Shown piece after piece: positions 24,457-54,605 of a DNA stretch of 64,000 nt. The stretch's first letter is position 1; every line of letters begins with the position of its first letter. The translations under genes and the position numbers were made by a program. Below the pieces are notes generated by a model. That model saw only the letters and a list, made by a program, of their open reading frames with translations, ran no database searches and had not been told where the DNA came from. Source of the stretch: Cristatella mucedo (taxonomy: Eukaryota; Bryozoa; Phylactolaemata; Cristatellidae); NCBI GenBank assembly GCA_009760855.2, contig WPIO01000090.1, positions 310,001 to 374,000 on the forward strand. Reading direction: 5' to 3'.

Positions 24457-24587
24457 ATGGCCGCCGTGACCTTGGAAGAGCTGGACTGGGAACTCGAGCG
24501 CTTCAATACGCACGCAATCCTCGTATCGCTGTCCAAGCGCTACGCGCCGGCCGGTTTTCTCGGCGCCGGAACCATCGCGAAAGTTGT
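24457..24587 (+). CDS. MAPK-like exon 1 (N-terminus and glycine loop)
   Basis: Begins ATGGCCGCCGTGACC after a CpG-rich leader; donor GTTGT|GTGAGT, ending in phase 2. It encodes MAAVTLEELDWELERFNTHA and ends RYAPAGFLGAGTIAKV, the counterpart of the MAPK start of N-lobe and GxGxxGxV loop. The split codon GT|G gives Val and leads straight into exon 2. GC-rich, unlike the later AT-rich exons, as is common for a first exon in a CpG region. Confidence 0.8.
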
Positions 24588-27500: not shown

Positions 27501-30500
27501 GTTTGTGGCAGCGAGAATAGGCATAAGCGCGAAAAGAACAAATCACATCGGAGTCACTCTCAATTACTGACATAAATGCTTTGTTATTTTTTGTAAAACA
27601 ATCAGCCGATTTTGGTTGACATCTTTGTTTAAATGAACCATATTTGTGATTTAAAATGCACCAGGAGCGTAATAATTCTCCGCCTACGTTCTGCTACCTT
27701 TGCGGGAGATTGCGAACAAAAGTGCAGCCGCCGCTTCTAATCGTTTTACATTCATCGAATGATACTATCATGCCTAATTCAGATGCAAACTTGGAGATCA
27801 GGATATAAATATAGCGGTTAAGGTGCTCGCTCCGACCAAGGTCTGACTGAGGTCGTGGGCTCGAGCCCCGAGGCATATGTGAAGCGCCTGAATAGAGATT
27901 AAGTTCTTTTGGGGCACTATATAAATAAATTATATTTATTTATTTTTTATTTATGCAGAGCTTCAGCAAGAATAACAAGCAAAAATTGAACAACCAAATC
28001 TACCATCAGCGATGCGAACCGTACCTCACAGTGATGAAGTGGGAGTTCCTGTTACACCTGTTACACTATATATTGACTGCCAGTGGTCTGAGTTCAACTT
28101 AAGGGAATGTGGATGAAAACTAAGGTGCTTTTAATGTTCCAACACCTAAACCAAGGTCAAAATCTGATCTTGCTGATATAATGAGAAAAAAAATTCTGCT
28201 GAATTAATGTACTAAATTAAACAAAAAACTGTCTACGCTGGGTACTAAGTGTTTGTAGTATAGACAGTGGTAAACATTTTATTCGTATTTTTTGACGAAG
28301 ATCAACTAGTTCAAAGGAGCACGATCGACGGTCTAGTTAACCAAACGGAAGTTAATTTTCATGATCGAACAGAGTAGAAACTCTTCATTAATTCATCCCA
28401 CCACAGTTTAAAGTGAGTTTTGCTTCACAATGGAAACGCACTCTCCTCCTTAACGGTTACAAATTCTGTACAGATAAAAGGAACTTAAGGAAACATGAAA
28501 ATACTTCTCGACGAAATCAAACGCGATCAAAAGCAGTGGCACACACGCGACGATTTAAAGGTAATTTCCTTCTGCTTGAAGTTCATGGTGGCTACACAAA
28601 CTATCCTTGCCTGTTATGTCTGTGGGGCAGTCGAGCTGATGCTCTTCATTGCCGACAGAAAGACTGGCCGGAGCGAACACATTTTGCGCCTGGGAGCGAC
28701 AAAATCTGAGCGCACCCTTGTTATCGACAGTAAAGTGCTACTTCCTAAATTGGACATAAAGCTTGGAATAACAATAAAAACATGCTAAGAATCTGAACCA
28801 AGAAGGTGATATTTTTAAGTACCGCACAAGAAACGTTTACCCAAATTGGATAGGCAAAGGTAAAAGCTAAATTTTTGTTTCTCCACAGATCAGGGATTTG
28901 TCCAAAGACACAGGGTTTACATCAGAAATAGCTGGGTTAGAGTTGCAGGCATCGGAGAGTTTTAAGTCACTATCAGAGAACTTTCTTGTCAATCACATCT
29001 CTGCTGACTACAAGCGTATCGTCGGGTACTTTACGTTGCGCTATCCGGCACTTGGCAGCAGAATGATTGTTAAGATGAATTTTATAAAATGCCAACTTGA
29101 CTATTTCTCCAAATTTAGAGCATTCAGTGACGAACTGGGTGAGAAATTCCTTCAGGGAATATGTAAAATAGAGCATAGATATGAAAATCGCTGCAATACT
29201 AACCGAATGGGCGATTACTGAGAAAAACCTGAAACCCCACAGTCCAGCTTGGCAGAGAATCGAGGAAGAGGAGGTTTAAAAGAATTTGAATAAATGTAGC
29301 AACAACTATGTTTAAAATGTGCATAGCCTAGATTATATTGTTATTTAACAATTGTAAGAATGTATGTGTTGCAAATGAGAGTATTGTAAAGTAAAAATAC
29401 AAGTTATTCAAAGTTCCGATGTACTGGATTAGAAAAAGTTACAGATTCTGAAAAAGCTTCCAAAAGTTTATTTGAATCGTATATAACATTGAAAAAACTG
29501 ACAGCAAGGTTTTATTTGCACGTCGGTGCAATAAAAATACCAGATCGATATTAACTTCAGTCAATGTTCTTGGAGGAGAGCTTAATTTACGTGTGGTCCT
29601 TGCTATAGAATGGTCGCCGAATTCTATCAGGTTTTCCTAATAAAGTGCCAGGTCGCGACCATATTCGCAGCAATATTTGAGTTCCGCAGTTCAGATCAGC
29701 TAGATTATCCGTTTTAGGCGAGCTCGTGATAACGTCACCCAAAAGCTAGTCGCTATTAAGAATTTCCAAGGCGTTAACGAAGATTATTTTACAGCTCTGC
29801 GTGTCTTGAGGGAGATTAAGTACTTGTCGATGCTCAGGCATGAAAACGTGAGTTAAAAATAAGATTACTAATGCGAAGTAGCGTGAATACGTATTTTAAT
29901 AATTTCAACTTGGACGATACAAAATCGTGCATCCCTGTGCATGGTTTGATGTTTTGATATTCTGTGCTTAAAAGATTTGTAATTCACTCTCAATGGCCGT
30001 CAGGACATTTCCAGACTGGTGAAACCTAAAACGAAAAGAAGCTGAAGCATATCAGTTTCTTAACGTATTTACAGGATCTTTGTAACCTTTGGATCCTTGG
30101 TATTGCTTAGGTACGCCTACACTGTGAATGCTTTTCGTAACGTCATTTACATGTTGACACTCTGCATGTTACCTCTAAACAAATGATTGTTGGCGCTGTG
30201 CATGTTACCACTAACCGTTTCATACGTGCTTCTATTACAGCATATATAAGGTGCTAGCTTAGCTCTTTAGTGTCACCTGCGTAAAATCAGAGCCTAGACT
30301 GTTCACGGCTGTTACATAGGCAACAAGGAAAGCAGAGATTGTGAAAGGAAATGAGGAAAGCACAGATCCTCGAGGTTGCTTTGCTTGAAAGGCTCCTATT
30401 ATAGTACTGTCTCAACCTGTCATTCAGTCTCTGAAATATCATGCAGAGATGGGTTCAAAGCCATTTAATTCCCAGGTGAGATTATTATCATCTTAAGATG

Positions 30501-33500
30501 AGCTTTGTAGTCAATGATAACCAACGCTGCCAAGAGATCCAGTCAAACTAGCAGAAAGACTCTACCTCAGACAAAGTTAGTGACATTGCAGCACATCTCT
30601 TAGTAGAGCCAGCGACTTGGTGCCTCAAGCTTGACTTTCTGAATTGAAATAAAGCTATTAATTTGGATATCAATATGCCCATTTGACTACATGTGCAGGT
30701 TTGGTTACAGGAGGACGCTTTGGTCGATCGATATCTACCAAGCTAAATTGCATTAGAGCCCCTTTTTGGGTGGGGTTAGAAGAACATGCCGAGCTGGGTT
30801 GGTCCCGCGGTTAAGGTGCTCGCCCCGACTAAGGTCTGGCTGAGGTCGTGGGCTCGAGCCCTGAGGCGTATGTGAAGCGCCTGAATAGAGATTAAGTTCT
30901 CTTGGGGCGCTATACAAATGAATTATATTTTTTATATTTTAAAACACCTCTCCGAGGCCATTTTGCTGATCCCATCTCCGAGGCAAGGCTCGTAAACTGG
31001 TGATGTCTTACAGTTAGGGGACGTGACACCTGTCTCAAGTGAGTTCCATGGTGCGAGTGCACACGAATATGGGGTTGGGTAGAGCCGTAGCTAAACGAAT
31101 CGTGTCATAAGAGCATGAGGTACGGTGTCATGTCAGATTGGGAAATAGCTGTTATAGTAGTCAAACGAGTCGTTCGCATATTTGAGGCCATTCTGAATCG
31201 CTTTAGCTGAACTGGAGTTTGCTCCAATAATTTTAAAGTTTTCCAAAATACAACTTTATTATAGGACGCCATTATTTTACTAAACGAAATTAGATAAAAG
31301 CACTTCTATGTGGGAGGTCCATTGAGTTAAGCTTGATGGTTTTCCAGGCTGGTGAGTTTGACTCTTCATAAATAAGTTTAGCGGCTGGTGATGAAGAGGT
31401 GCCGGTGGCCACAAGATTCATCGGTGAAAAATGGCTGAATGTTACTAAATGTAAGCCTAGGATTTAGATTTCGCTCATCCATTTCCAATAAATGTCTTTC
31501 AAGTGATCACGGTGATGCGAATTCAAAATAAGCTTACATGTCAATAGAAAAGCATGATCACTCAAAGAGCGCAGTAATTCTGTTACTATATTAGCTCGTG
31601 AAAATGACAGAATCACTTACAATATTTAAAAAATAACAAATTCTGTAATTAAAATACTAAAAAAGACATTATGGATAATATAGAATGATACACTTATGGT
31701 AGAAGGTATTAAGCATTCCAAATTGAAGGCACTCAAATGAGTCTTTAGTTAAATGCGTTTGATCATTATCATTTCCATACGGCTCATGTACATTAACACT
31801 TTAATACATGCGGTCGACCCAAGTCGTCACTCCAAGTGTTACTGCTTAATATTAAGGTGGTTTTTATAGGCTCTTACGAGGCTGCCAAAGCAGGTAAAGG
31901 TGCGAATGCACTTCGACTGCTAAATAGTGTATTCGCGCTGGAATGGCAATATGGTCCTATGCATTTGACTATGCTGGGCTGTCTCAGAAGGATAAGCAAC
32001 TTTGCAAAACATGACCTGCACATCTTTCCTTGCCTGAGCTAAACAGAGATATCAGTTCCAGGTATAACCTCTTTCTAAATTACTTAAAAGTTATCTATAA
32101 ATATTAGCCTTTACTTTCATTAACTACGGGAGTGTTTGATCAGAGCTTTTGATGTGCGAGTCAAAGGTACTTTATTTTGAAAGCAAGGTATACTTTCTGC
32201 AGTAGTATCTACTGTTCTAATCCACTGCGTATGAGACTGACACTATAGCTAATGGCTGGCTTTGTGTGCTACAAATTTTCGCAGCTTGCCATCTTGACTG
32301 TCATTTAGTCGCTGAAAATTTTGATTTTGCTTTAGTTTTTGGTGTTAGATAAAAAAATTTCGCTGTCATTTCATCAGCAGCAAATTCTCATGTCCAGAGA
32401 GAGCAAAAACATCTCTAGAGTGCATTCACTTATATCCTAATAATAATAATATTAATAGGAATATAAAACTTTTACAGTTCCATCAGATCAGCGAAATCTG
32501 TATTATGAGTTCAAATATACTGCAAATAAATCTTGTCTACATGGATTATAATAAATGGAACAGCATCAAGATGTCTAGGCGCATACTGGATTACGGACGC
32601 GGGTCCAGAAAATCCAGGCGAATGGACTCTGTTTTGGCATCTATCTAAATATCATCAAGACAGAGAATGTCTCGACTAGCGGCATTCGCCAGAAAGCTCC
32701 AAGATTTGGCCTCCGATTTAGGTAAAGTATCCAAAGCATTTGAGATTGTTTGAGGAACAGCTAAACGACTAGAATTATTAGAGTGGGTAAAACGAGGCCT
32801 ACTATGATGGGAAAGATGTTTCAACAGGTAGACTAGAAGAAGCGAGTAAAGGCACCTAAAAGTGAGTGGTGCAATCTTAGTTTGAAGTGCTGCTTGACGG
32901 AAAGCAAGCACAGGTTGGTAAGCATTGGTGTAACGGGCAAGCACAATGCTCACCTCAGACAAGCCTGGTTAGCATGGCTTGAACAAATTATAGCTACCTT
33001 ATTGCCAGAACCAAAACGCCTGAAAGTAGTCCAAGATATAGAAAAACGATGCGGAAAAAACTGTACTGTGATATCTTTGTCTCGGCAGGTCTCAAGTTTT
33101 TGCACTTTCATTTAGGCAAAAGTAGGCAGACGTGACGACGGAGTTTATGTGGTTGGCTAGAGAAAGGTTACTTTAGAACGGGAGACCAAGATTTCGTGCA
33201 CACGCTATAGAATATGCTGGCCCATATCAACTTTCCAAATTCCATGCTCTGAAGTTTCCCACTCAGATAGGCCCTAAGCCATTGGATAGCTGTGCCAATG
33301 GTGCACTCGGGATGTGAGAGGCGTTTGACCTCGGGCGATTTTTAGTATCAAAAGCTTCCGTAAATTCCACCAAAAAAGTAAAGAGACTTCGCATAAGTAC
33401 GCCTACTTGAGACAGTCCTAATACATTCGTGCCAACGCTGAGTTTAGGGAGTGATTAACTCTTAAACACGACCCGAGCTTACTTTCCAGGCTTGCGGTGT

Positions 33501-36500
33501 CGATATAAAATTATCGGTTGACTGCAACTGCGCGTTCCAGTTTCTTCCATGCGAACGGCTGTAGGTAGATCGACTGTAATCACTTAGGTCCACCACGTCT
33601 AGGATTGGCCTTGGTAGCTTGACAAAAGCCTTTTTCAAAGGTGCGCGGATAAGAGCCGAGTCTTAAAGAATGTTGCAGGGGCTCGCGCGCGCGACGGCGG
33701 GGCGACGAGAATGACGAATAGTGAAGCCTCATATGAGTCGCGGGCGTCATGTGACGGCGGCTGGACTGTACACAGGCGACGCAGACGAGCGAGCGTACAC
33801 ACTCGCGTCGTAGCCATCGTGAATGCTGCTCCGGAGCACGCGGAGTTGGGAAAGGGAGAGAACGAGAGTGGGTAGATGCCGTGCGTCCAGGCCAACGTAC
33901 AAGCTTGTAGTACGAAGCTGCAGCGCCGGCCGGGTCAGATAGCCCGCCTTGCACTTTGCAATTAAAGCGAGCTTAGTCGGCCGATACGGCTTGACTGCAG
34001 GCTCTCATGAGCTGATGCACAGCGTGCCCGCGGGTTGGGAGGAGTGGTTTTGAGTCTGGCTGAGATGGAGTGGAGGGTGGTGGTGGGGAACTACTTTGCG
34101 GCGGAGCCACGTCCACGATGTTACGAAGGCAAAGTTACGCTACCGCCGAGCGTATGCACTGCGAGAAGAGAGCAGTGGCTATCGTTTCTAAATTGCAAGT
34201 GGTCTTCTAAGACTACTAGAGGATTAAACTCAAGCTGAGGTCACTAGTGGCAAGCAAGACCGTGAAAATTAAAATGTTGCACGGGACTGAGATGTAGATA
34301 ATTACAGCACAGATGACACTAGCGCAGGCGTTGTGTTAGGATGCTACCTTGGAAATGGGCTCGCTGACAGGTTTCATCTTATGGACAACGGTGCTAGAGA
34401 AACGATCTGCTAGGTAGCCCCGAGGATCGTTTTAAAGGTTTGATCCAATATCGGTGGATGGTCGACATCAGAACTTTTGGCTAATGCACGTTTAATAAAC
34501 CACATCTTTCTAGATCCAGAGCTAAGACTTTTCTGGGACAGATTGCTGCGATCTACGACAGTCATCCTTGACCAGTCAATGATCGGTCAGTCCTGATCTT
34601 TTCTACGCTTTCTCACTCTCCAGTATCTACTATTATTCTTTGCCTGGAAAGCTTCTCCATTTAAAATGAGTAGTGACTAAATAGTAAACATTATATACCA
34701 GCTCTTAAAATAACTAGTAGCTATCGATTTATTCTGATTTGGAACTTAATTTCTCATTTGTCAGTTGAATTTATAAAAAGCTACAATGCATTGTTTGTAT
34801 TTTGTACTTATACTGTCAAAGTGACTTGAGCGTATGGCTGGTGATTTGCAACTGAGTATCTTAGGGTCATAGAACAAATAGTTTCAAGTTAAGTACGTGA
34901 CATTTTCAACAGCTTATGGGTGTGTTCCTGATTTCTTCGTTGCTATTCCATAGTAGCTATATCAGCCTGTATTCCGTTGTATCCTCAAAGACTCCTTAGC
35001 CGTGCTTCAATGCGCTAGCTTCACCAACTTTAGTCTCACATTTGCATAGACCGACCAAGTTATGTGAGCTGTGCTTGTTGCGAAGAGTTATAGATCAGGA
35101 GCTGTCAGAGCGTCTTTGTAACGTTGCTTTTGGAACTGCTACTGGGGGTTTGAGCAGTCTTCTTGTGGTAGTCATGACTGCGAGACTAGAACGCGATACA
35201 AACTACATAGTTTTCAGCAGCAGTCCAAAAATTCTGACAGCAACGTTATGAATAAGCTTTAATTGCTATTAAGCTAAAGCTATTTGCCGCTAGATGCTGC
35301 TGAGCAATGTAGCTCAAATAAAGATTTGGTTTATGTATGAATTAAGTCATGTACTTAATCTTAGCATCGAGTTCCTTAAAGTTGAAGTTGATGTCTCCTT
35401 CTAACAGCAGCTCCGATTCTGAATCATGAACCCTTAAAAATACTCGCCAAGTACTCCACAGACTGGGCTATTAAAATGCTCGTCGTACAGGGCTGAAAGA
35501 GGGTGCTTTTAAGCTTCGCCTGGATGCTAGTGGCACTGTAAGGGGCAGAAAACTTAAAATTGTGAGAATTATTTTACTCTCGAATTTTCTATGCTAAAAG
35601 AGAGAACAAAAGCATCAGAATTTCTTAAATTTTATTTAAAGGTACACAATTTTATTAGTTCAAGGACTGTGTTATTTTACAGGTGATCAACATCGAAAAT
35701 GTAATAGCAGAAATCCAGGATCCTTGGTTGACGGATGTGTATCCTTGTAAGGCTTCATCAACAAACCGCAAATTAAGTGATTAATTTTGAATTTTTATAT
35801 TTTACATATAATTTAGCATATGATTCATATTTGTTATGTCCACTGGCGTGTAAGTATAGGACGATATAACGCTATTTATATTTAACGATATTCGCACACC
35901 ACAAAATTTAAAAAAATTACTCCATACAGCAGAAATCAAATATAAGGAAATCCTGAAGGCCTATTGTGATTACACCTATAAGGTCCTAACTGATAAACTC
36001 TCTGTTACTAGCTGCATTTTATCAATAATAATGTTGACCAAGATCGTTTGCTTTTCAGATGTTTCGAAAAAATATTCCAGCTTCTCTTACTGCCTAATTC
36101 AACCCAGCAATTTTTGGCTCTTAATCTTCATCCACATTGAACTGCATCATCTGATAATCATTACTCTAATTACTTATTAGAATGCAATTAATTTTTAAGT
36201 GATTCTTGAAGCTGAATAATATATGCTTCTTCTTTTTTGCATGAGACATATGGGACTATCTCGTAAATTATTCTTAGAAAGTCGCGTGTGCAGGAAAAGA
36301 TTCAGGAAACACTCTTTCGCATTTAAATACTGTAAGCACTTACCTTACTTCATAATACCTTTCTAATGTTTCGCTTAAGTTTTGTGCATTAGATATGTTC
36401 AAATGGAGCTGATGGATTACACTCTTGAGAGTTGCATCAAGGAAAGATTTCCGATCATTTCTGAGATGATCGGCGTGAAACAGTGCATGTTCCAACTACT

Positions 36501-39168: not shown

Positions 39169-39207
<39 letters not shown>

Positions 39208-41202: not shown

Positions 41203-41238
<36 letters not shown>

Positions 41239-44200
41239 GTTTATATGTATATAGACATACCTACTTCCAATATTGCCAATTACTTCCAATATATGCTTAT
41301 TTAGATAGGCCACGGGCATGCTTGGCATGCTCAAATAAATATCTCAAAACGCTTGGGGATTTTAGCTCATGAGTAATGATACCTCATGCGACAATCTGTA
41401 GGTCGTGGGTTCGAGTCTCACGGCAGTCTATTATTTATTGTCAATGCAAGCGATGTTATAGAGGCCATGGCTCTCGAACTGCTTCATAAATGGGGTAGTT
41501 GGATAATTCTATTCTGAATTTCACATTATGATTAGCCGAGAATACCCAGATCGACAGATATTTAGTTCACAAAAGCCATAACGTTACTCTGAATCGGTTC
41601 CGAAACCAATCAATTGAGTATTGAAAAAACAAGGATTCTTAGGTGTTTTCGGTCAATATTTCAACTGTGTTTGAGGTGTTAAGGGGAAAAGATAGTGGAA
41701 TTACATTTACTTAGTTTAGTTTAAGTCTCAATGGTATAGTTAAAGAATTAAAAGAATATAAATATTTATTAATTTTAAAATGAAATTCATAATTAATATA
41801 TAGTATATTGTATCATTAAATAATATACTTTAAATTATATTAAATTGGTAAATAAATAAATAACATGCATCAAAAGTTACATGGGTATAACTAATTCGAC
41901 GAATGTGTCAAGTATGGTCGAAACGTAAAAAGCGAGATTGCCATGCAATAATTGACGTCGTCGGATGGCGTTGGCACAAGACAAATAACCATTTTCCGTT
42001 GTCAGCATAAGCTAGTTTCCTATAGAATGTTGACATCGTAATCTTTGAATTACGAAATTGCATACCGGGTTTCAGTTTTTATAATGACAATGTCATATGT
42101 TGGTTCTAAAATCGTCACCTCATCCTGTTTTATTGGCTAAAATGTATCGTAATCCTGATGCTGTAAGTAGTTCAGTTAAGAAGAAACCTAACATTAGTAC
42201 AGGCTTGCAGTAAAAGTAGTTTTTTTAATAAGTATTTAACCTACCATTGCAAAAATTGCACAAATAAATCCACAGTGGACTTCTTATTTGAGGTGCACTT
42301 GCTTCAACTACTTAGAGGCTACCAATATCTGCCCCTGCCATGGGTGTAGCTTGACATTCAGGAAAGCAAAGACCGGCTCCCGTAAGTCCAAAGCAAGTCT
42401 TATTCTGTAACAATTTGTGCAGATTGTTCTGCTCATTCAATGGCCCTGTAAACCCGACTCAGGCTAAAATGTTCACGCACAAAATCTACAAGCAAAAGTA
42501 AAATAGGATGCAAATAGAGAAACATTTATCTGTTTTTAGTCTATTTATACTCTTGCTATGACCTTTATTTTTTGAAATAATTCCTGAAAATGCACTTTAA
42601 AGTTAAGATTCCTCCAAAGGTTTTAAAATAGGATATCCTGAGTTATTGAAATTCAAAACATGCAAGTGACCGCTGTTTTTTAAAGCCTTAGGCACAACAG
42701 TGTAATTGGTCTGGTGAGCGCCAATTGAGCCAATCTACCAATTGAGATGCTTTTTTCAGTACCTGCGCCGTTTCAAGCAGCATAAATTAAATTAAATTCT
42801 ATAGTTCTGTTGTTACTAGAAGGATCCCGAAGAATCATAATAATATTCATAATTCTCAGTGTTTTTCGCATAACCACTATCCCTTGTGTAGCCACTTTAT
42901 AATCCAAATTGTTTTGCTCAACAGCAGGTACATATATAGAGCTACAACTAGAGCCCCAATTAATGTGGATACAGTGATATTATTCTCTTGGGGAGCCATA
43001 GAAAGTCTTGTTATCACGATCACGGAACTGCTGCTCGCAGGACACTCCATGCGTGTGGCTGGACAGCTGCCAAAATTTTCAAAAATTCATTAAAGATACT
43101 GCTTCCACAACTAGCTATGGTGGTTGATCACTATTTAAGATTAGGAACCTAATGTGGAACTCACTTCTAAAGTTCTTACGCAACGGTACTGATCTTCTAC
43201 TGCCGACTGTGGCACATCCTTTCTAGCAGTCCTGAGCTGCTATTTCCATGCTACGTACTACCTCAACAGCTCTCCTGACTCAGTTATGCTTGTCACTTTT
43301 TCTTCGTTGCGCGAGATGAAGTCTGTTGGCTTTTGAATGTCTACCAAAAGCCTCTTGGGCTGTGAGTGGGCGATGCAAAACTTTCCAGCGTAACGTCCAC
43401 GAAGTCTTTGCGGCTTTATGGAGCTATAGTCTGACATACCGTCACCAAATATGAACACCAGTGATGATGATCTCTTCCAAGGACAGAACGTAGAGATCAA
43501 TTGGACTACCTACGAGTCTATGTTGACGAAAAGGTCTCTTTGAAATCCAGCGTATCTTCCCTGCAAATATGCAGATAAAAAATTGAGTAAATCTAAAGAT
43601 TTGTATTTTTAATACATATACAGTGAAGAGGAATGCGTTCTTTTTCATATGAATCTTTTGCTAGACCACATTTGACGTGTTTAGAGCTAGTTTGGCATAG
43701 TGGTTAAAGTGCTCGCCTCGACCTAGGTCTGGTTGAGGTCGTGGGCTCGAGCCTAGTGGCGTATGCGAAGCGCCTGAATAGAAATTAAGGCCTCGCAGCG
43801 AGTTATAAAAATGAATTATAAGTCTTTCAAAAAATATATTTCAACTTCAAAATTGGCATTACATAGAAATAATCGGAATCTGAAAATTCATTCTTTTAAT
43901 CGCTCGAAGAAAATTTAGATAAAAACAAGGACCGAGCTCAACTGGTAAGGTTGACTGCCCTTTGATAGACATCAGAGACAATCCTAGCAAAGTCAAAGTC
44001 TTGCTTCTATAAAGCTACTATTGAATCTTAGATAAACAATGCGAAAATGCTGATGTCTACGATGAAGCATCTCCTTAACCACTCCCAGCTTACTATCTTA
44101 CCTATTAATTCTTGTATTGTTCCAGCTAATCGCTTCCATGGCTTCTTTGTCAGAATGATAAACAGGATCAGAGGGTCGAATCCTGAAGTAGAAGCATCCT

Positions 44201-47200
44201 CTCGCGAACCGTTTCCCTCACTAACAGCCTTGAAGGACTCCTTACCATAAATTCTGTGCTGCACGTCAATTTATACATTCAAGGTGGCCATGGGTGATCC
44301 CATCCCGACAATCATTCTGAAACCTGCCCCTTTCAAAAGGCTATAATTAGGCCGCCAATTAAGAAAGCAAAACTAGATCAAAAAAACTAAAGCAACTCGC
44401 CAAGTATCCCTTCGATCAATCTAATCAAAGAAAGTGGAATAAGTTGTGGTAAACCATGTACTCAATACTCAAGTATTCAAAACTTAAACCTATAAACTAA
44501 CTTGAATTCTTTTCCAGAGTCACTGCATCGAAATTGGTCCTTGCATTTGTGATATCAAATCTCGATTTTAGCAACCCAGTACTTGCTTGTCTAGCGGAAG
44601 CTGCAATCCGGTGCTTACAGAAGTTACAACGATCTGCAGCTAGGTTGGTGTGGCGTGAGAGGTGCAGATACAGCATCACACCACTTCTCGCTTACCTGCA
44701 CCTTCTCCCAGTCCAGCAGCATGCCAAGTTCAAGGTTTAGCCATTCTCTGTTATGCCTCTTTCTTCTCTGGCTCTAGCCTGCCGGTGCAATATAATTTCC
44801 CTATGGGCTAAGTATAAATAATAAATGATTTTCTTACTCAAATTTATAATTATTAATTTGAGTCAGAAAATGTACGAGGTACAGCTTATGAGCTATATCG
44901 CGTATGAGCGTCACGTCTTTTGGAGTCCGTGTCTTTGGTTTGTACACCCCCAAATCCTAAAAATCTCTGTTGACTAACCTCGAGGCATTTCCCGACTCAA
45001 CAACATTAAAAAAAGAAGCTAAAGCACACCGTTATTTACTGCAGTTGGCGTATTCTGGCGAGCCATTCTTTGTGGACGTGTTGGCGCTGACCAAATGTAC
45101 ATGCTACCAGGAACCATTTTTATTACAAGTTTACTCTGTGAATTACATCTCAAGCCTCACAATAGTAATTTATTTACAACTCAAGTAAATAAATCTAGAA
45201 AATAAATAAATTCCCAGAGTGTGCCATGCAAATGTATTCTTAATTTATAATAATTATTACTCACAGGTTCGTTTGACGGCTGGCTACAGTTCGTGTTATT
45301 CAATCACGTGTTACCCCAACTTGCATTGTAGGGCTGCAGCTGCTCGAAGGCCTACTGCAGTTCAATCCCAATAAAAGGCTGACGGCATTTGAGGCGCTAC
45401 AGTCGGAGTTCATCGCCAGCGTAAAGCCCGAGTACGACCAGCTGGTAGGTGGTGCGTTGTTAATAGGAAGGTAGCGAAGAGATTACAGAAAGTGCATTTT
45501 TTTCTTTTTACCCCCATTAAGCAATGCCTTTACTTATTAGTCATTACTTATATCTGTCCAGCCCCTATTGTAAGCAATGCAATTACATCACTGGGCAGTG
45601 AAGTCACATCTAAGTGGACCTTCCCTCATGCAAAAAGATTAGCTGATTTACAGCCTCATTTATATAGCTCTAGAAGAGCCTTAACAGCTATCACAATCGC
45701 TTGCAGGGGCAATTAAAGATAATCCACTACAGGAATCGAACCAACTATCAGGGTCAGCAAGAGCAAGCACCCTGACCCCTAAACAAAGATCCAGGACTTG
45801 GGCACCGGAAAACAAGTTTTTTATACTCTTTAAAAATGAGTTTTAAGATCCATCGATGAATTATGAAGTTGTGCCTCTCTTGCACTAAGGTTAATAATAA
45901 TGTACTTGATAAGTTTCACGAATTGCTAGCGGGACAGTGAAATTGAGAATTTAAAGATGATGGTTAAGTACTACGGAAAATAGAGAGAAATTACATGGAA
46001 CAGAAAATCCGGATGAAAGGCGGTCAATAAGGTATCTAAAATCCCGATATGCAACAATCAGGAAGCGTAGTGATCTGGTGACAGTAAAAACTGGCTGACA
46101 ATTACTGAAGTGTCTTTAGAATCATGCTGTCTAGCACTGTGATCGGTTAGTCTTAGCCATCTTCTCATTCGTTTTTTCTGCATATACTCTGCCCCTGACA
46201 CATTTCATAGCCTAAAGAACTTGGCATTCATTTAGACTTTATTACAATGACATTTTTGTAATATCGGACCTTTCTAAGCCTCGCTTGCATCAGTTGCACA
46301 TAATAACCCTTTAGGTCCAAATTGGTGCACCTGCTACGTCTAGCTACCATTTAGTGGTACAACTGTCTGAGATTCATTGGCTACCTCCCAAGCAACGCTT
46401 TTTGGCATCGTTGCACAAGATTGCAACATTCGCAAGACTGCATCATTCACAATGTTGCATCCAATTTCCGCTAGTCTGGCTGACAGGGTGCTCTACACGG
46501 TTTCACCAGCTTATCGCAAGCCCAGTGTAGCCTTGCACTTTACCAGCTCACCCGCTTGTAGTTTTCCTTTTTCCTCGAACGACGCTGGCATGTTTTGAGG
46601 ATCCGGCTTTCGGTAAGTTCGAATGAAAGTCTGGATCTTGTTTCCAGCCTCGGTCACTATCGAAAAAATCATTGTGTAATTGAACTCTCAGCCAACCAGA
46701 TCTAAGATGCGGTCGGTTTTCGCTTCTCTTCACCTCAACATGAATCTTTTATTAGTGCGCCGTTGCGTCGCTCACCTGACTATAACTTGGTTCATAGCAC
46801 TACCAGCGGTCCTGGAACCGGTGGCCATATCTTCTTAACAACAATAATAATGCATTTGAATAGTGCCCTAAGAGAACTCAATCTATTTCTAGGCAACTTA
46901 AATACAAGAAAAGGATAGTAAAGAAAGCATGATCATCAGATTGATAGCAGGATGCACAATGTCAACCAGCATAACACGGTTAATGGTGACATGCACAGGG
47001 TCAGCTTACAAATATGGTTAGTGGCATTATGCACAGGGTCAGCTAGCACAAGTACACACTAAAGGAATCGCTAGGACATAATAAATGATGAGCCGTGATG
47101 GCATACCAAGTAAGGTGGTTGCTTTTCACGACCTCGGTCCTGAGGTCGTAGGTTCGAAACTTTCGGTGGGCAATACTATATTGACGCTGCAAGCGGTAGT

Positions 47201-50200
47201 GATAGCAGTAAAGAATTTTCTGTCGCTATGCAAAAGAGGCTGAAAATCAACTAGTATTTTTTTTACAATAAATGCTGAGATAACTAGCCGCGTTTTAGCT
47301 TCTTTTTAAATGCAATGTTATATGTTAATGCAACGGGTGTTATGATGTCAGCCTAGAGTGAGGTCCAGGCTTTGGAAGAGTACGAACGAGAGACAGATCT
47401 CCAAAGGATCTGAGGGCCTTACGGCAAGGAGCTACCGGTATGCGATGTGATTCAGAATAGCTGCTGGTGTGATGCCTGGCTTGATGAGGGAGTAGTTTCG
47501 ATAATTAGGCTGGAGCCAGAGAATGAAGAGATCTAAAAGTTAATGACATAACCTCGAAGTCGACGCCACTTGATTAGGATCTTCTGAAAGTCGGCAAGAA
47601 GTGATAGGAAGTGGCAATTGAGGCGCTCAAGGCAGACGAGTCTAGCCTCAGAGTTTTGCACTAAGTGTATAACTGGTATCTCAGGCAAGTAGAAAAACAA
47701 GCAGTAATAAAAATGATGATGATAATAATAATAATACAAATAATACCCTTCATAAAGCGCCCCAGATATATACATCTCTTTATATGCACTTTAAATTTAT
47801 TGCAAAGGAAACTCTATCGAGTGGGGAGTGGTATCATGCTTGATTAACAGCATGGATAACATGGTTAGCGTTGAGCTACACAAGTCAAGACGGGATGTTG
47901 AAAGTGCATGGGCTACTTTGGATATAGTATCCCTGTCTAAGAATGCTTGAATTTCAGCACAGTTATGTGGCTGAAGGTATGAAAACTTTACTGTGGAACT
48001 GATGTAGTCTCTATTGCAAGGTATCTTTGGAACAGGACACATAGATTTGTGCATATTTAATAGAAGATATGCTGACAGAGCCTCTTTAGAGCGATAGGCT
48101 TTCCGAATTGAGAGTCACACTTGGTTCGCCCACAACAGTACCTTGTTTCTTGTGTTTTTTTAGAATTATGGCCTACAACGGCTCTTATATATTCTTTAAT
48201 ACTTATATATAATATATTAGTTTGTATAGCGCCCCAAGAGAAATTAATCTCTATACAGGCGCTTCACAAATGCCTCGGAGCTCGAGCCCGCGACCTCAGC
48301 CAGACCTTGGTCGGGGCGAGCACCTTAACCGCTGGATCAAACAATACTTGGCAGGACGTAATGCCGTGCTTGTTTTAAACCAGTTCGTCATTGATTATCT
48401 GACACAAAGACTAAATCTCCCTGATAGAGATATAATTCTCTTAGGTTGCTTTGTCAAACCTATTATTATTAGTATTGATATAATATTCGCACCAAACGCG
48501 GTGGTTAGCAGGACTTTTATCGCACTCAGGCAATTGAGAAAGACAATTAGTCTGAAAGACGAAGTATTGGCTTGTTTAAGTTGTACTTGTCCTATCGGAT
48601 TTAATCCTTTTTATGTTGTGGTCAAGTCACATCCACCAGATCGGTCACTTGTGCAGTACCTCAAGGTTCTGTTCTCAGTGATACTGAGTCTCTAGGAAAA
48701 ATTATAGGCTCCATTAGAAGGGCCGTCACTTTTATGCTGATACTACTAAGCCGTATTTATCATGTAAACCATTAGAATCCACTGCTGCAGCAGAGAAACT
48801 GATTGCTTGCTGCCTCGCACATGTAAAATCCTGAATGGTGGCCAATTTCCTCAAACTGACAGACGATAAAAACCAGATCCTTCCAAAGCACGCTACTGGA
48901 CTAGAGGGCTTTGGTTCTTTAACTGGTTATACTGTAGTTGCGACTCTTATTATTTCACGAACTCACGTTTCCTCTTAGATACATGCTTTATTTTGAAGAA
49001 TCATCAAAAAGGCTACCACACAGCTGACGAGAACGTCTGATTCCTGTCTAAGATTTGCCTATTCTACCACGGCGACTAGCTAGAATTTTAGTTGACTCCC
49101 TGGTTCTATCCAGGCTGGGTTACTGCAATTCGGTTTTGTGTGGGCCACCGAATAAAGTCGTTAAACTCTGTAGCTGTTAATGAAAACGGCTGAAAATTTA
49201 GCAAAAAATCCCAGAGTCCTAGAGATTTTACCCTGGCCTTGAATCTCCTTGGTTGACGGAGCTCCGATGGCTAATGTAATGTATCTCCGTCAGTAACTCC
49301 ACAAAGTCATAAAGACCATGTGGGTGTTACGCAGGAGAGTTTTGTATAGCGCACTCACAGCCTAAGCGGCTTTCGGTACGCATTCGGTAGCCAGCAGACT
49401 TCGTCTCACGAAACAAAGAGAAAGCGGGAAGCATAGCAGAGTCAGGAGAGCAGTTGAGGTAGTAAGTAGCATAGAAGTAGCAGCTCAGGACCGCTGAAAA
49501 GGATGTGCCATAGTCGGCAGTAGGAGAGTAGTTGTCGTTGTGTAAGAACTGTGGAAGCAAGTTCCACAGTCTAGGACCTGCAGAGCTAAAGCTTCTATCG
49601 CCAACGGTCTTTAGGCGGAGAAATGGGACAGCTAATTTATTGTCCACAGAGGACCTGAGGGCTCGAACATGCTGAAACTGATGCAGCAGTTCAACAGAGA
49701 CAGACTTACACTGACTATGGTGGATTATAATGGCTTAGCTCCTTCATACCTAGCTGAGCTTACGCACCAGTTTCATCCTCCTAGATGTTGTCAAGTTCCT
49801 CTCTTGATATTAAATCAGCTGTCTCATTAATTCACTCATTTACCTTTGGTGACAGAAGCTTTTGTTCTGGACGTCCTTGACTGTGGGACTCGCATTCGAT
49901 ATTCTTAGGTAGCGACATGTTCTTCCCTGCTGGCGTCTGCGGAAGATTATTTCCAGCAGCCCTGAGCTGTTACTTTCATGCCGTGCTACTAATCTCCGTG
50001 ACTGCCTATTGACCCATTTATGCGTCTCACTTCCTTTCTGCACCTTGAAAAAGAAGCCTGGTGGCTTCCACATGCGTTGGCGATGCCACTTCGGCATTAA
50101 GTGTGCTAAAGAAAGCTCTACAGCGTAACTACAACCCACTTAATATTTGCGGCTTAGTCGAGTAATGGATGGAGATAATAATACTGACTTAAATTCAGTT

Positions 50201-51068
50201 GTGAATTATGGTGATCATGGCGCTTATTTTTGAATTTTGTGACGATTCATACGTTGGCGTACTTACTGTCTTCCACGTAGCTGACAAGCTATTGTACGGC
50301 TGACCGTTTCTCCACGTTCCGTCTCATCACGTCTTTCCATCAATTAAGAGCCAGGAGCGATTACAAATTTTAAAGGCTAGCACAATTCAGGTCACCCTGG
50401 ATAAGATCCTTTGTGCAAGTACAATGCCCAATGGAAGAGCTTCTAAATATGAATGAGTGAAGCACATGAGAAATGCCTTAACAAGATTTAGTTCTTATTC
50501 GGGCACCGTAAATATGTATTAAAATCGCTGTCAATAAAATTGGCGCACTTTATTTATGCCTACAGAGCCAGGAAAGCCTTTTGGCGGATATTGCCACTAA
50601 CTATAGTTATCAATGGGTTATGAACTTCAACACATTGCTGCAATCCATTGAAATGCATTTCCTATGGCAAATGGTGTAAAGTGCGGGTTCCAAACCGGGT
50701 AGAAATTGAGCACTTCACTAGTGAATCTTAATGCAGCGCTTGCAAAAATTTCACTTTGAGAAAAATAGCAGTTATTCTACAGGACTATGGACTTTCGTGC
50801 GTTCTACAGATATTGCGTAATCTTCCTTACTACGCTGTCATTTATTCGAGACATTGGCTATATCGTTTAGACTGGTCGCGATGGGTTCTCCCGACCTAAT
50901 CGACTAAAATATCTGCTTTTGTTGTTTTAGCCAGTGTACATGGGTCCTGAAGTCGCAGACTTTAATACCTATCTTGGCTTTGGAGAAGTTATGAAACTTA
51001 TCAAGCAGTGTATTACCATCAACTTGTCAGATTTAGATCCATCTAACCAGACGTCTATGGCTAAATGA
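24457..51068 (+). CDS. MAP-kinase-like pseudokinase, nine exons, 375 residues
   Basis: MAP kinases are proline-directed Ser/Thr kinases switched on by double phosphorylation of a TxY motif. Nine exons (24457-24587, 29718-29847, 35683-35738, 36393-36594, 36671-36863, 37009-37094, 38406-38484, 45332-45444, 50931-51068) total 1128 bases. All junction phases fit and there is no internal stop. The protein aligns along its length with ERK/p38: glycine loop GFLGAGTIAKVV (33-44), VAIK lysine K58, helix-C glutamate E76 in LREIKYL, LLKGLHFIHSAQIVHRD (141-157), LLRAPEVLL (199-207), IDVWSIGGILF (216-226), YLMNLTTKPKVPW and LLEGLLQFNPNKRLTAFEAL. Odd residues: the third glycine of the loop is Ala41, HRDLKPSN is HRDLSTAT (K to S159, N to T162), DFG is GFD (176-178), and TEY is TIG (192-194). 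Phosphotransfer is therefore unlikely; ATP binding, docking or scaffolding are possible. The intact frame and spliced structure argue against a processed pseudogene. The exon model was built by eye from splice signals and family homology. Confidence 0.85.
24815..25492 (+). mobile_element. LINE-B fragment, C-terminal coding part to 3' UTR
   Basis: Plus-strand LPRLDYCNSLLVGLPKKATR, then AARLDFESQRFERVSPLLK, then LAELLHQF-like, AGPRLW-like and GDEICWLPNA-like segments, ending near 25490 in the LINE-B 3' UTR (AGTCTGTATGACTTTCTGGA, GACGGAGATACGTTACA). 5'-truncated and decayed. It begins only about 230 bp after exon 1. Confidence 0.85.
26953..27268 (-). mobile_element. LINE-B 3' fragment
   Basis: Starts GTAATGTATCTCCGTCAGTA, the reverse complement of the TTACA-type LINE-B terminus, then GTTACGCAGGAGAG, GCGCACTCACAGCCTAAGCG and the reverse of the SSAGPRLWNSLPQFLRND coding part. 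It ends at ACCTGCAGAGCTAAAG. Confidence 0.88.
27366..27560 (-). mobile_element. LINE-A 3' UTR fragment
   Basis: AAGGCACTTTATATTTTCTGC, AAAGGAAACATGATCGAATGG, CACAGGGTCAGCTTGCAAAT: a diverged LINE-A 3' UTR in minus orientation without its tail. Confidence 0.65.
27808..27945 (+). mobile_element. SINE-1 copy
   Basis: GCGGTTAAGGTGCTCGCTCC, CTGAGGTCGTGGGCTCGAGC, then the tail AAGCGCCTGAATAGAGATTA and GGGGCACTATATAAATAAAT. The 5' end of the tRNA-like head is truncated. Confidence 0.85.
28413..29260 (+). pseudogene. Broken copy of a multicopy invertebrate gene family (unknown function)
   Basis: The segments GGYTNYPCLLCLWGSRAD, QKDWPERTHFAPGSDK, KVLLPKLDIKLGI and, further on, NFLVNHISADYKRIV and ELGEKFLQGICKIEHRYENR recall a family seen in many copies in arthropod and cnidarian genomes (typical forms GYTKYCCFLCLWDSRA, LLPPLHIKLG, EQGERFHQDI). 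These come from memory and were not searched. The copy spreads over more than one frame, with about three breaks, and is not functional. The family's role is unknown to me; a link to a mobile element is possible. It lies in intron 1 of the MAPK-like gene, in the same orientation. Confidence 0.6.
29718..29847 (+). CDS. MAPK-like exon 2 (VAIK lysine and helix C)
   Basis: Acceptor TATCCGTTTTAG, donor GAAAAC|GTGAGT. One base of a split codon plus 43 codons: RARDNVTQKLVAIKNFQG ... LREIKYLSMLRHEN. Compare ERK2 AYDNVNKVRVAIKKI and LREIKILLRFRHEN. The ATP-anchoring Lys58 and its salt-bridge partner Glu76 are both kept. Confidence 0.9.
30788..30935 (+). mobile_element. SINE-1 copy, near full length
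   Basis: GCCGAGCTGGGTTGGTCCCG, GCGGTTAAGGTGCTCGCCCC, GAGGTCGTGGGCTCGAGCCC, then AAGCGCCTGAATAGAGATTA and TCTCTTGGGGCGCTATACAA, ending ATGAATTATATTTTT. The A-box-like and B-box-like tRNA promoter segments are clear. Confidence 0.9.
33640..33960. promoter_or_regulatory. CpG-rich block inside intron 2
   Basis: GCTCGCGCGCGCGACGGCGGG and CGACGCAGACGAGCGAGCG stand out from AT-rich flanks. It could be an internal promoter, an unknown repeat or the edge of an antisense gene. Minus-strand frames here show no domain. Function inferred from composition only. Confidence 0.3.
35683..35738 (+). CDS. MAPK-like exon 3
   Basis: Acceptor TATTTTACAG. I place the donor at GATGT|GTATCC because this phase (2) alone keeps exon 4 open and gives LTDVYVQMELMD, matching MAPK KDVYIVQDLME. 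The 18 codons read VINIENVIAEIQDPWLTD. The donor GTATCC is weak; a competing GTAAGG lies 8 bases downstream but would break the frame. Confidence 0.78.
36393..36594 (+). CDS. MAPK-like exon 4 (hinge to catalytic loop)
   Basis: Acceptor TTTTGTGCATTAG, donor TTCAAG|GTAGGT. It encodes YVQMELMDYTLESCIKERF, then CMFQLLKGLHFIHSAQIVHR and DLSTATVLVHVEKRQFK. HRD is present (155-157), but the family HRDLKPSN reads HRDLSTAT, losing the catalytic-loop Lys and the Mg-binding Asn. Confidence 0.92.
36671..36863 (+). CDS. MAPK-like exon 5 (GFD, altered activation loop, APE)
   Basis: Acceptor CACACTAATCTTTAG. It encodes IAGFDWARKLHETDDGYLTI, then GGKAPLLRAPEVLLTPSTY and TQAIDVWSIGGILFGLF ... FLSG. At the ERK KICDFGLAR position it reads KIAGFDWAR, and at GFLTEYVATRWYRAPE it reads GYLTIGGKAPLLRAPE. 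The donor is taken as GGCT|GTATCC (phase 1); the frame stays open to 36895 if unspliced. With exon 6 the spacing to the next conserved block equals ERK2 exactly (15 residues). Confidence 0.85.
37009..37094 (+). CDS. MAPK-like exon 6
   Basis: Acceptor AAGTCATAG, donor GAGCAG|GTAATT. The codons GRVRNIHQYLDVIGSLEQKD and VEFISDEQ correspond to the ERK [20 protein letters not shown] segment. The acceptor could instead be 6 bases upstream (CTCAAG), adding two residues. Confidence 0.8.
37150..37235 (-). mobile_element. tRNA-like SINE fragment
   Basis: The minus strand reads TTTAGCCAGGTGGTTCAGAT, then AATAAATAGAGATCGTGAG and TTTAAGCCC, i.e. an A-box-like and a weak B-box-like segment in tRNA order, plus the TTGACAATAAATA body seen at 41362-41465. 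No tail is visible. Too divergent to be a working tRNA gene. Confidence 0.45.
38406..38484 (+). CDS. MAPK-like exon 7
   Basis: Acceptor ATATTTCAG, donor GAAG|GTAAGT, phase 0 in and phase 1 out. It encodes TRKYLMNLTTKPKVPWRTFC and HGAPEE, the counterpart of ERK [20 protein letters not shown]. Confidence 0.9.
39071..40160 (-). mobile_element. LINE-B 3' copy split by a LINE-A
   Basis: Left part 39071-39172 begins TGTAATGTAATGTAATTTATC (terminal repeats) and stops at CGCCGCCTAAG. The right part 39885-40160 resumes TGGCTTTCGGTGCGCATTCG, exactly the next LINE-B sequence, and runs through SSAGPRLWN-type coding DNA to GGAACAGCTGG. The interval between is a LINE-A. Confidence 0.9.
39173..39884 (-). 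mobile_element. LINE-A inserted in LINE-B
   Basis: The (TAA)n at 39173-39206 is the reversed tail. The 3' stem-loop, 3' UTR and an intact C-terminal coding part follow (39421-39873, 150 codons: LQLVQNSAARLVCRERRSC ... HWLPVKQRID ... LKSFGDRAFRLYAPKAWNSL ... LFRTAFSGSL). It ends within LTGLPACAIRR, so it is 5'-truncated. Short flanking TAAG/CAAG could be the target duplication. Confidence 0.92.
41205..41235. repeat. (AT)n microsatellite
   Basis: About 15 uninterrupted AT units in intron 7 of the MAPK-like gene. Confidence 0.95.
41362..41465 (+). mobile_element. Diverged SINE-2-like copy
   Basis: TTAGCTCATGAGTAATGATAC, GTAGGTCGTGGGTTCGAGTC (good B-box), then TTATTTATTGTCAATGCAAGC and GATGTTATAGAGGCC, comparable to the SINE-2 body. 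A lone tRNA gene is unlikely because no cloverleaf is evident. Confidence 0.6.
43080..43442 (+). mobile_element. LINE-B 3' fragment
   Basis: Plus strand: ATGTGGAACTCACTTCTAAAG, TTCTTACGCAACGG, the TCCTGAGCTGCTATTTCCATG segment and CGAGATGAAGTCTGTTGGC, ending AGTCTTTGCGGCTTTATGGA. It includes the C-terminal coding end and the 3' UTR. Confidence 0.85.
43682..43825 (+). mobile_element. SINE-1 copy, diverged
   Basis: GAGCTAGTTTGGCATAGTGG, TTAAAGTGCTCGCCTCGACC, GAGGTCGTGGGCTCGAGCC, then AAGCGCCTGAATAGAAATTA and ATGAATTATAAG. Confidence 0.85.
44047..44745 (+). mobile_element. LINE-A remnant, linker and C-terminal part
   Basis: Plus strand: HLLNHSQLTILPI and NRFHGFFVRMINRIRGS (the endonuclease-RT linker type also present at 58480-58640), then after a gap LVLAFVISNLDFSNPVLACL, LQRSAARLVWRERCRYSITP and LLAYLHLLPVQQHA. 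Most of the RT is missing. Confidence 0.7.
45332..45444 (+). CDS. MAPK-like exon 8
   Basis: Acceptor ACTTGCATTGTAG, donor CAGCTG|GTAGGT; phase 1 in, phase 0 out. It encodes LQLLEGLLQFNPNKRLTAFE and ALQSEFIASVKPEYDQL, matching ERK [23 protein letters not shown]. The run PEYDQL falls where the acidic common-docking region of MAPKs lies. Confidence 0.92.
45640..45800 (-). mobile_element. SINE-2 copy, diverged
   Basis: Read on the minus strand the order is head (GGTGCTTGCTCTTGCTGACC), weak B-box (GTTGGTTCGATTCCTG), body, and the TAGCTGTTAAGGCTCTTCTA tail region. A clear but old relative of the copies at 14855 and 63538. Confidence 0.65.
46140..46800 (+). mobile_element. Very old LINE remnant
   Basis: VQLSEIHWLPPKQRFLASLH near 46357-46420 recalls the HWLPVKQRIDFKVLSL motif of LINE-A, and preceding sequence recalls the LFYYNDIFVISDLSKPRLH order. 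Too decayed to assign to a family. Confidence 0.4.
46838..47675 (-). mobile_element. Old LINE-A copy with a SINE-2 inside
   Basis: Minus orientation from AATAATAATGCATTTGAATAG (tail) through the 3' UTR (GGTGACATGCACAGGGTCAG) and C-terminal coding part to GAGTTTTGCACTAAGTG. It is interrupted at 47088-47262 by a SINE-2. Confidence 0.75.
47088..47262 (+). mobile_element. SINE-2 inserted in LINE-A
   Basis: GATGAGCCGTGATGGC, GGTTGCTTTTCACGACCTCG, GAGGTCGTAGGTTCGAAAC (B-box), GACGCTGCAAGCGGTAGTG, CTGTCGCTATGCAAAAGAGG. AATAAATG stands on both sides (47081 and 47268 regions), a likely target-site duplication. Confidence 0.85.
47725..48060 (-). mobile_element. LINE-A fragment with internal deletion
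   Basis: An AAT-rich tail, TTCATAAAGCGCCCCAGATA and the start of the 3' UTR to about 47870, then a jump to the upstream coding region (CAAGTCAAGACGGGATGTTG, GGATATAGTATCCCTGTCT, AATTTCAGCACAGTTATG), i.e. the LDKDTISKVAHAL-type segment. Minus orientation. Confidence 0.75.
48205..48350 (-). mobile_element. SINE-1 copy
   Basis: Minus strand: GTTTGATCCAGCGGTTAAGG, TGCTCGCCCCGACCAAGGTC, GGTCGCGGGCTCGAGCTCCG, tail AAGCGCCTGTATAGAGATTA and TCTCTTGGGGCGCTATACAA. Confidence 0.88.
48370..50190 (+). mobile_element. Old LINE (RT to 3' end), LINE-B-like, split by a younger LINE-B
   Basis: Plus strand: a degenerate RT (QYLKVLFSVILSL for the GSVLGP region; TTTTATGCTGATACTACTAAG for YADDT near 48730), SRLGYCNSVLCGPPNKVV near 49108-49160, then after 49690 [33 protein letters not shown]-type and a 3' UTR ending near 50190. 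The antisense LINE-B at 49275-49690 interrupts it. Confidence 0.65.
49275..49690 (-). mobile_element. LINE-B 3' copy, relatively fresh
   Basis: Begins TAATGTAATGTATCTCCGTC (terminal repeats), GTTACGCAGGAGAGTTTTGT, GCGCACTCACAGCCTAAGCG, then about 106 open codons (49327-49647: [20 protein letters not shown] ... SAGPRLWNLLPQFLHND ... KSAGYRMRTESRLGCECAIQ). It stops at CTGATGCAGCAGTTCAACAG: strong 5' truncation. Confidence 0.92.
50931..51068 (+). CDS. MAPK-like exon 9 (C-terminal tail and stop)
   Basis: Acceptor CTTTTGTTGTTTTAG, phase 0. The 45 codons read PVYMGPEVADFNTYLGFGEV, then MKLIKQCITINLSDLDPSN and QTSMAK, then TGA. It takes the place of the MAPK C-terminal extension (L16), but the sequence itself is not conserved with ERK or p38. 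The assignment rests on phase, splice signal and expected length. Confidence 0.72.
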   Translation, partial: PVYMGPEVADFNTYLGFGEVMKLIKQCITINLSDLDPSNQTSMAK

Positions 51069-53520: not shown

Positions 53521-54440
53521 AAAAGTAATAATAATGCACTTGATAAAGCGCCCTCAGAGAACTCAATCTCTCTCTAGGCACTTTACATTTGCTGCAAAGG
53601 GAAATGCAATTGAATGGTGAGTAATATCATGCTTGATAAACAAACAAAATTAATAAAATGGTTAAGAGTGACATGCATAGGGTCAGCATGCAAATGTGGT
53701 TAGTGGCAGCATGCACAGTGTCAACACGCATAAGCACATGAAAGACGAATCACAGGGACCCACTAAATGCTGTCAAAAATAGGTGCTTTTTCAAGTTCTT
53801 TTAAAATTTGGTCAGGTCAGCGGATGATTATACGCAGGTCGAGAGGGAGTTCCAGGCTTTGGGAGCATATGAACGAAATGCACGGTCTCCAAAGGATTTG
53901 AAGTTTGTACGAGGTATTTGTAGACTGTTGGATTCCGAAAAGCGGGTGGTACGATGCTTGGCCTGATGGCGGAGTATATCTGAGAGATAGGCTGGAGCCA
54001 AAAAATGAAGTAACCTAAAAGTGAGCGACAAAGCCTTGAAGTCAATCCGTTGCTTGACTGGTAGCCAGTGCAGGTAGGCGAGAAGTGGTGTCATGTGGCA
54101 ACTGCGACGCTCACGACGGTCTAGCGGTTAAGGTGCTCGCCCGGACCAAGGTCGGACTGAGGTCTTGGGCTCGAGCCCCGAGGCATATGCGAAACGCCTG
54201 AATAGAGATTAAGTTCTCTTGGGGCGCTATATGAATGAATTATATATGTATATACGACAGACAAGCCTAGCTGCGGAGTTTTGCACCGGCTGCAATTGCC
54301 TGATCGCACATGCTGGTAGGCCAGTAAGTAGTGAGTTGCAGAAGTCAAGACGGGATGTCACGAATGCATGGACCACCTTGGACGTGGTATCCTTATCTAA
54401 AAAAGCCCGAATTTTAGCAATGTTATGAAGCCGAAAATCC
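53521..54440 (-). mobile_element. LINE-A copy carrying a SINE-1
   Basis: Reversed tail (AAGTAATAATAATGCACTTG), stem-loop, 3' UTR and C-terminal coding part (NPTVYKYLVQTSN frame and its partner) run to 54117, are interrupted by a SINE-1, and resume at 54255 with CAGACAAGCCTAGCTGCGGA up to the LDKDTTSKVVHAFVTSRLDF coding part near 54440. Confidence 0.9.
54118..54250 (+). mobile_element. SINE-1 inserted in LINE-A
   Basis: GGTCTAGCGGTTAAGGTGCTC (A-box-like), TGGGCTCGAGCCCCGAGGC (B-box-like), tail AACGCCTGAATAGAGATTAA and TCTCTTGGGGCGCTATATGA, then TA-rich end. LINE-A sequence is continuous across it and ACGAC stands on both sides, the likely target duplication. The 5' end of the tRNA-like head is truncated. 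Confidence 0.93.
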
Positions 54441-54463: not shown

Positions 54464-54605
54464 AAGAGCTGGTTTGGTCTTGCGGTTAAGGTGCTCGCCC
54501 CGACCAAGGTCTGACTGAGGTCGTGGGCTCGAGCCCCGAGGCATATGTAAAGCGCCTGAATAAAGATTAAGTTCTCTCGGGGTGCTATATAAATGAATTA
54601 TATAA
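54464..54605 (+). mobile_element. SINE-1, best full-length copy
   Basis: GAGCTGGTTTGGTCTTGCGG, TTAAGGTGCTCGCCCCGACC, GAGGTCGTGGGCTCGAGCCC, then AAAGCGCCTGAATAAAGATT and TCTCTCGGGGTGCTATATAA, ending ATGAATTATATAATTATATA. Confidence 0.93.

Follow-up and report, generated by a model that had tools for sequence, protein, structure and literature searches.

A spliced gene of the MAP kinase family that probably codes for a pseudokinase

The window, a stretch of DNA of 64,000 nucleotides, contains a real gene at 24457-51068 on the plus strand that, judged by its sequence, is a member of the MAP kinase (MAPK) family by descent. We think it likely that an ERK-type MAP kinase gene was duplicated and that this gene is the inherited copy, intact and spliced, with two introns that look minor, and that it codes for a pseudokinase. 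With similar confidence, we expect its product to be non-catalytic. Table 1 lists its parts and other features of the window.

Table 1. Positions of features in the window.
Feature	Position	Strand	Remarks
Exon 1	24457..24587	+	Start codon; glycine-rich loop GAGTIA (third Gly to Ala); donor GTGAGT
Exon 2	29718..29847	+	VAIK with beta3 Lys58 (29758-29760) and alphaC Glu76, both retained
Exon 3	35683..35738	+	beta4 region up to the DV/Y junction, phase 2
Intron 3, U12-type candidate	35739..36392	+	Donor GTATCCTT; branch-like TCGCTTAAG 14 bases from acceptor
Exon 4	36393..36594	+	Hinge, alphaE, catalytic loop
HRDLSTAT	36538..36561	+	HRDLKPSN in four MAPKs; HRD retained
Exon 5	36671..36863	+	GFD, activation segment, APE, DVWSIGG
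GFD at the DFG position	36677..36685	+	Asp to Gly, Phe retained, Gly to Asp
TIG at the TEY position	36725..36733	+	Thr retained, Tyr to Gly
Intron 5, U12-type candidate	36864..37008	+	Donor GTATCCTA; branch-like TTGTCTGAC 12 bases from acceptor
Exon 6	37009..37094	+	First portion of the presumed MAPK insert region
Exon 7	38406..38484	+	TRKYLMNL...KVPW; further portion of the presumed MAPK insert region
Exon 8	45332..45444	+	NPNKR Arg308, end of kinase domain, partial CD docking site (Asp328)
Proposed exon 9	50931..51068	+	C-terminal tail and stop; open, in phase
AATAAA	51239..51244	+	Possible polyadenylation signal; second AATAAA about 100 bases further
Tandem repeat	13947..14106		19-base unit, 8.4 copies, 97% matches
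KA1 domain	15754..16080	+	Pfam, E 1.6e-21
Open frame	18142..19017	-	Resembles reverse transcriptase
Open frame	39424..39924	-	Resembles reverse transcriptase
Open frame	55045..56013	+	Resembles reverse transcriptase
SINE core match	19601..19626	-	
SINE core match	27849..27874		
SINE core match	30842..30867		
SINE core match	43735..43760		
SINE core match	48272..48297	-	
SINE core match	54159..54184		
SINE core match	54517..54542		

When the gene was rebuilt from the DNA, nine in-phase exons gave 375 codons followed by TGA, with GT-AG at all eight introns and an in-frame stop 5' of the exon 1 ATG. The 375 codons, the end points, and the motifs HRDLSTAT (residues 155-162) and GFD (residues 176-178), as described in the initial annotation, were all recovered. 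Given the frequency of stops in the introns (0.061 per codon), an unselected frame of 375 codons would be open with P ~6e-11, or with P = 5e-7 if every exon-length piece picks its own frame; both values treat the exon boundaries as fixed, though their choice was free. Exon 2 was also matched by ERK2, by ERK5, and weakly by CDK2 in tblastn searches.

Eight of the nine exons first proposed are firm, but the ninth, which is plausible as the last exon of the gene, has no support from homology. The peptide of exon 9 was no more similar to the tails of four MAPKs than shuffled peptides were: the fraction of 500 shuffles that scored at least as high was 0.88 for ERK2, 0.53 for p38, 0.37 for JNK, and 0.07 for ERK5 (0.068, which is borderline). 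Between 45445 and 53000 there are 44 acceptors, counting that of exon 9, behind which 40 or more codons are open in phase 0, and exon 9 ranked 45th by tail similarity among 376 candidates. Among the 28 candidates with a decent polypyrimidine tract, it came second, with a score tied with others. Its acceptor is the most pyrimidine-rich of the gene's eight, and an AATAAA lies 171 bases 3' of its stop. Because exon 8 already completes the kinase domain, what we say about HRDLSTAT and GFD does not depend on exon 9.

An error in the gene model or the assembly, with pieces of a canonical kinase joined wrongly or misread, might also yield such motifs. Exon 9 is an arbitrary choice, and a more U1-like GTAAGG sits 8 bases beyond the donor of intron 3. 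However, STAT and GFD each lie within a single exon, away from the junctions. The alignment DVYVQMELMD is obtained with the GTATCCTT donor; splicing at GTAAGG instead would move the reading frame by 8 bases. In addition, a second copy of a kinase was not detected anywhere in the window by tblastn with six kinases; the best match outside the exons was a stray stretch of ERK5 similarity at 22102-22191 (E 0.089). Such an error is extremely improbable. For related loci, pattern searches gave 7 matching stretches among viral contigs and 12 among genome contigs, none of which tblastn confirmed.

Several comparisons point to the MAPKs. The Pfam Pkinase model matched residues 33-320 (E 9.2e-43), and ERK2 was closest among 2264 matching sequences from the PDB; together these uphold the alignment along the kinase fold that had been described. 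The best 60 of the 2264 matches comprised ERK2 and ERK1 entries, a single ERK2/p38 chimera, and an entry named just "mitogen activated protein kinase, putative." Among five kinases compared by BLAST, the bit scores were 167 for ERK2 (33.5% identity over 313 residues), 157 for ERK5, 135 for p38alpha, 107 for CDK2, and 91 for JNK1. (Of the sequences used, those of ERK2, p38alpha, JNK1, and ERK5 were confirmed in the PDB.) The best match is thus to a MAPK over the full domain, with CDK2 60 bits below ERK2. From DxWS to NPxKR, 34 of 93 residues are identical to ERK2 and 18 of 93 to CDK2. We take exons 6 and 7 to encode the MAPK insert. Late in its C-lobe the protein has an insert region like that of ERK, which aligns to ERK2 without gaps; CDK2 has an insert too, so length is not decisive by itself.

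We rejected a six-sequence tree as evidence for a subfamily (ERK1/2, ERK5, p38, or JNK): in it the gene fell beside the outgroup, its branch was very long (2.1 substitutions per site; support 55), and the deep nodes had supports of 55 and 62. Because of that branch and its support, we claim descent from the MAPKs but not from a given subfamily. The gene resembles ERK1/2 (MAPK1/MAPK3) in having a full-length kinase domain, an insert region of ERK length, GYLT before the activation Thr (GFLT in ERK2) and, like ERK2, minor-type introns. However, it is only about one-third identical, and it is without the catalytic-loop Lys, both Mg ligands, the TxY Tyr, the P+1 pocket, and one Asp of the CD site.

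At the motifs of an active MAPK, the predicted protein has HRDLSTAT for HRDLKPSN, GFD for DFG, and TIG for TxY. HRDLSTAT puts Ser in place of the catalytic-loop Lys and Thr in place of the Mg-binding Asn. Losses in the glycine loop and around HRD and DFG, with the ERK2 residue first, are G37 to A41, K151 to S159, P152 to T160, S153 to A161, N154 to T162, D167 to G176, and G169 to D178; those in the activation segment are Y187 to G194, V188 to G195, T190 to A197, R191 to P198, and Y193 to L200, and VATRWY, which follows TEY in ERK2, reads GKAPLL. Together, these changes remove the two Mg ligands, the Lys of the catalytic loop, the Tyr of TxY, and the P+1 pocket. By the bioinformatic definition, a pseudokinase is without at least one of the VAIK Lys, the HRD Asp, and the DFG Asp (PMC4718504), and this protein falls within it by its missing DFG Asp. 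The reading of the gene as a MAPK-family pseudokinase by sequence is therefore borne out, and the losses go beyond those first listed: they extend to the Tyr of TxY, to the P+1 pocket, and to the glycine loop, whose third Gly is replaced.

Much else is retained: the beta3 Lys, the alphaC Glu, the HRD Asp (Asp157), the hinge residues, APE, and DxWSxG, or, in ERK2 numbering, K54, E71, H147, R148, D149, F168, R172, T185, A195, P196, and E197, as well as D210, W212, S213, G215, and R301. At the positions where we take the docking sites to lie, the CD site has Pro for Asp318 and retains Asp321 as Asp328, with Glu326 close by; the DEF pocket has Arg for Tyr233, and its remaining positions are retained or conservative.

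Across the positions that are invariant in four MAPKs, 58 of 94 are retained and 36 are lost. The losses are concentrated in the catalytic and activation segments, where 5 of 17 positions are retained versus 53 of 77 elsewhere (Fisher P 0.005); the 17 positions (glycine loop, KPSN, DFG, and activation segments) were picked post hoc from the alignment. With CDK2 added, the counts are 5 of 13 versus 42 of 56 (P 0.019). The 24 of 77 invariant positions lost outside these segments, such as C216, E220, and P229, count against a fully conserved fold. Hydrophobicity is largely kept: 100 of the 114 columns that are hydrophobic in all four MAPKs remain so. Where the residue in such a column differs from those of all four, it is hydrophobic in 35 of 49 cases, versus 55% expected from random changes (P 0.014).

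Another explanation is that a duplicate freed of catalytic constraint is now decaying and is open only because that constraint ended recently. This would fit the very long branch, the 36 lost positions (including those outside the active site), and the lack of a recognizable MAPK tail. However, there is no stop, frameshift, or lost GT-AG across the 375 codons and eight introns, and the U12-type donors described below are intact as well. In a simulation of decay, for which we assumed that half of the substitutions are transitions, that 0.12 indels occur for each substitution, and that 32 splice bases matter, the fraction of neutral copies still intact was 0.12 at a divergence (d) of 0.01, 0.036 at 0.015, and 0.014 at 0.02, so under these assumptions a neutral phase beyond about 1.5-2% divergence is unlikely. 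Counting only stops gives a weaker bound that would allow several percent of drift (0.115 intact at d 0.05 and 0.028 at d 0.1). Since wholly neutral drift is bounded at about 1.5-2% once indels and splice sites are counted, and the protein is about two-thirds unlike ERK2, most of its divergence arose under constraint. The bias of the changed residues toward hydrophobic ones also argues against decay. We consider such recent decay unlikely. The initial annotation had proposed that the fold is kept for a non-catalytic job; the 58 retained positions, the enrichment of losses in the catalytic segments, and the intact gene are consistent with this.

Introns 3 and 5 both start with GTATCCT, which is a signature of the minor (U12) spliceosome. 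The donor consensus of the minor spliceosome is (A/G)UAUCCUUU, and ERK2, MAPK11, and JNK1 are among the genes named as having minor introns (PMC8199999). In the window, GTATCCT occurs at 5 of 3726 plus-strand GTs, which gives P = 5e-5 for at least two of eight junctions, with the motif having been named post hoc. The branch-like sites are not distinctive: about one-quarter of the AGs in the window have a consensus score of at least 6 of 9. Because such scores are so common, the case for U12-type introns rests on the donors. We had considered these donors to be weak and possibly decaying, and we dropped this idea once the U12 consensus was recognized; U12-type identity accounts for donors that are poor for U1. 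We presume that introns 3 and 5 are at the same positions as the minor introns of human MAPKs. The minor introns, together with the number of introns, argue for a gene inherited as a MAPK duplicate, rather than a retrocopy, as far as its sequence can tell.

Other features of the window are as follows. A KA1 domain ends about 8.4 kb 5' of the pseudokinase gene on the same strand; it probably forms the end of a kinase gene of MARK/Par-1-like type, whose spacer may lie in the open frames upstream. A 26-base core, which we read as belonging to a tRNA-like SINE, has seven matches with at most three mismatches (mean 0.00 in shuffles), and four of these are inside introns 1, 2, 7, and 8 of the pseudokinase gene. 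Three open frames resemble the C-terminal parts of non-LTR retrotransposon reverse transcriptases; none of the three had a Pfam match at 0.01. The 19-base tandem repeat lies within open frames on both strands. ARAGORN found no tRNA in the window, and no Rfam family reached its gathering score there. A SINE pattern taken from the window had 0 exact matches among viral contigs and among genome contigs. The spliced genes, the KA1 domain, and the LINE-like and SINE-like repeats suggest an animal genome.

Might the protein be an atypical but active kinase that, like CASK, needs no Mg for its use of ATP, or in which the displaced Asp178 stands in as a metal ligand? Lys58, Glu76, Asp157, and the hinge are retained, and the first and third PDB matches were ERK2 chains that carry DFD in place of DFG. 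CASK phosphorylates independently of cations although it is without the DFG Asp (PMC4718504), so loss of this Asp alone is no proof of inactivity. However, the best predictors of activity are an intact glycine-rich loop and VAIK (PMC4718504), and the third Gly of the loop is Ala here; the catalytic-loop Lys, the P+1 Thr, and the TxY Tyr are gone too. We consider such activity highly improbable. CASK, STRADalpha, and ILK are similar to the predicted protein in having an altered DFG or catalytic-loop Asn; their pockets are usable, as the one here may be, and they belong to other kinase families. In ILK and STRADalpha, the altered pockets hold an active-like shape, and ILK carries a charged residue for the DFG Gly (DVK) (PMC4718504).

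Returning to the pseudokinase, normal Mg-ATP phosphotransfer would not be expected since both Mg ligands are gone, despite Lys58, Glu76, and the hinge, and we would expect no Pro-directed recognition of substrates. The retained spine positions (as we assign them), Lys58, Glu76, and the charged residue at the DFG Gly may favor an active-like shape, fixed in the DFG-in state. Since the P+1 pocket is gone, binding is the likeliest output, and the protein probably works, if at all, through binding other proteins. As a decoy or as an allosteric activator, it might occupy proteins that a real MAPK works with, such as a MAP2K, a phosphatase, or a transcription factor. A role as a decoy or allosteric partner within a MAPK module is a tentative proposal, to which we give somewhat less than even chances. 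Because the D-motif docking site is half eroded, simple competition for D-sites is a weaker form of this idea. p38 up-regulates minor splicing in human cells, and a bolder scheme is that this is a lineage-specific animal pseudokinase, held in an active-like shape by GFD, that steers a MAPK module without phosphorylating anything and whose expression is gated by its two minor introns, so that a stress MAPK would control its own dead decoy. We consider that scheme very unlikely.

Pseudokinases are found in many kinase families, and yeast Mlp1 is a paralogue of the MAPK Slt2. Mlp1 (Kdx1) is a pseudokinase of the Slt2 MAPK pathway that is catalytically inactive and acts by binding: it is phosphorylated, acts in a mono-phosphorylated form, and activates Swi4/Swi6 (PMC9106771). 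The likeness to our gene is that of a non-catalytic pseudokinase of a MAPK pathway; Mlp1 is fungal, and we liken the two by description and claim no closer relation. ERK itself acts non-catalytically on topoisomerase II, PARP-1, MKP-3, and Rb-lamin A, but the topoisomerase II and PARP-1 cases require phosphorylated ERK (PMC3215182), which weakens the analogy with them because the TxY here retains only its Thr. Among kinase-like non-kinases, a human protein has GFD at the start of the activation loop, and a 216-residue mouse protein has MAPK as its closest subfamily (PMC2754085); members of that class by definition lack the HRD Asp, which is retained here.

Among open-licence PMC papers, broad searches led to Mlp1 and to general papers on pseudokinases and kinomes, and we found no description of an animal MAPK in which the two Mg ligands and the TxY Tyr are all lost; passages of a Fasciola kinome paper mentioned no MAPK pseudokinase. 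The initial annotation had stated that no MAPK paralogue with this combination of residues is described. Within those papers the same combination was indeed not found, but yeast Mlp1 and the mouse MAPK-like and human GFD proteins exist. MAPK pseudokinases are known in principle, from yeast Mlp1, and this gene would be another, with a new combination of residues.

If minor-type introns are kept here, they would show that such introns can persist in a gene stripped of its enzyme function. The separation of MAPK binding from MAPK catalysis has been approached through the kinase-independent functions of ERK (PMC3215182) and through yeast Mlp1 (PMC9106771). Expression and conservation of this gene would make it a natural split of the two in an animal.
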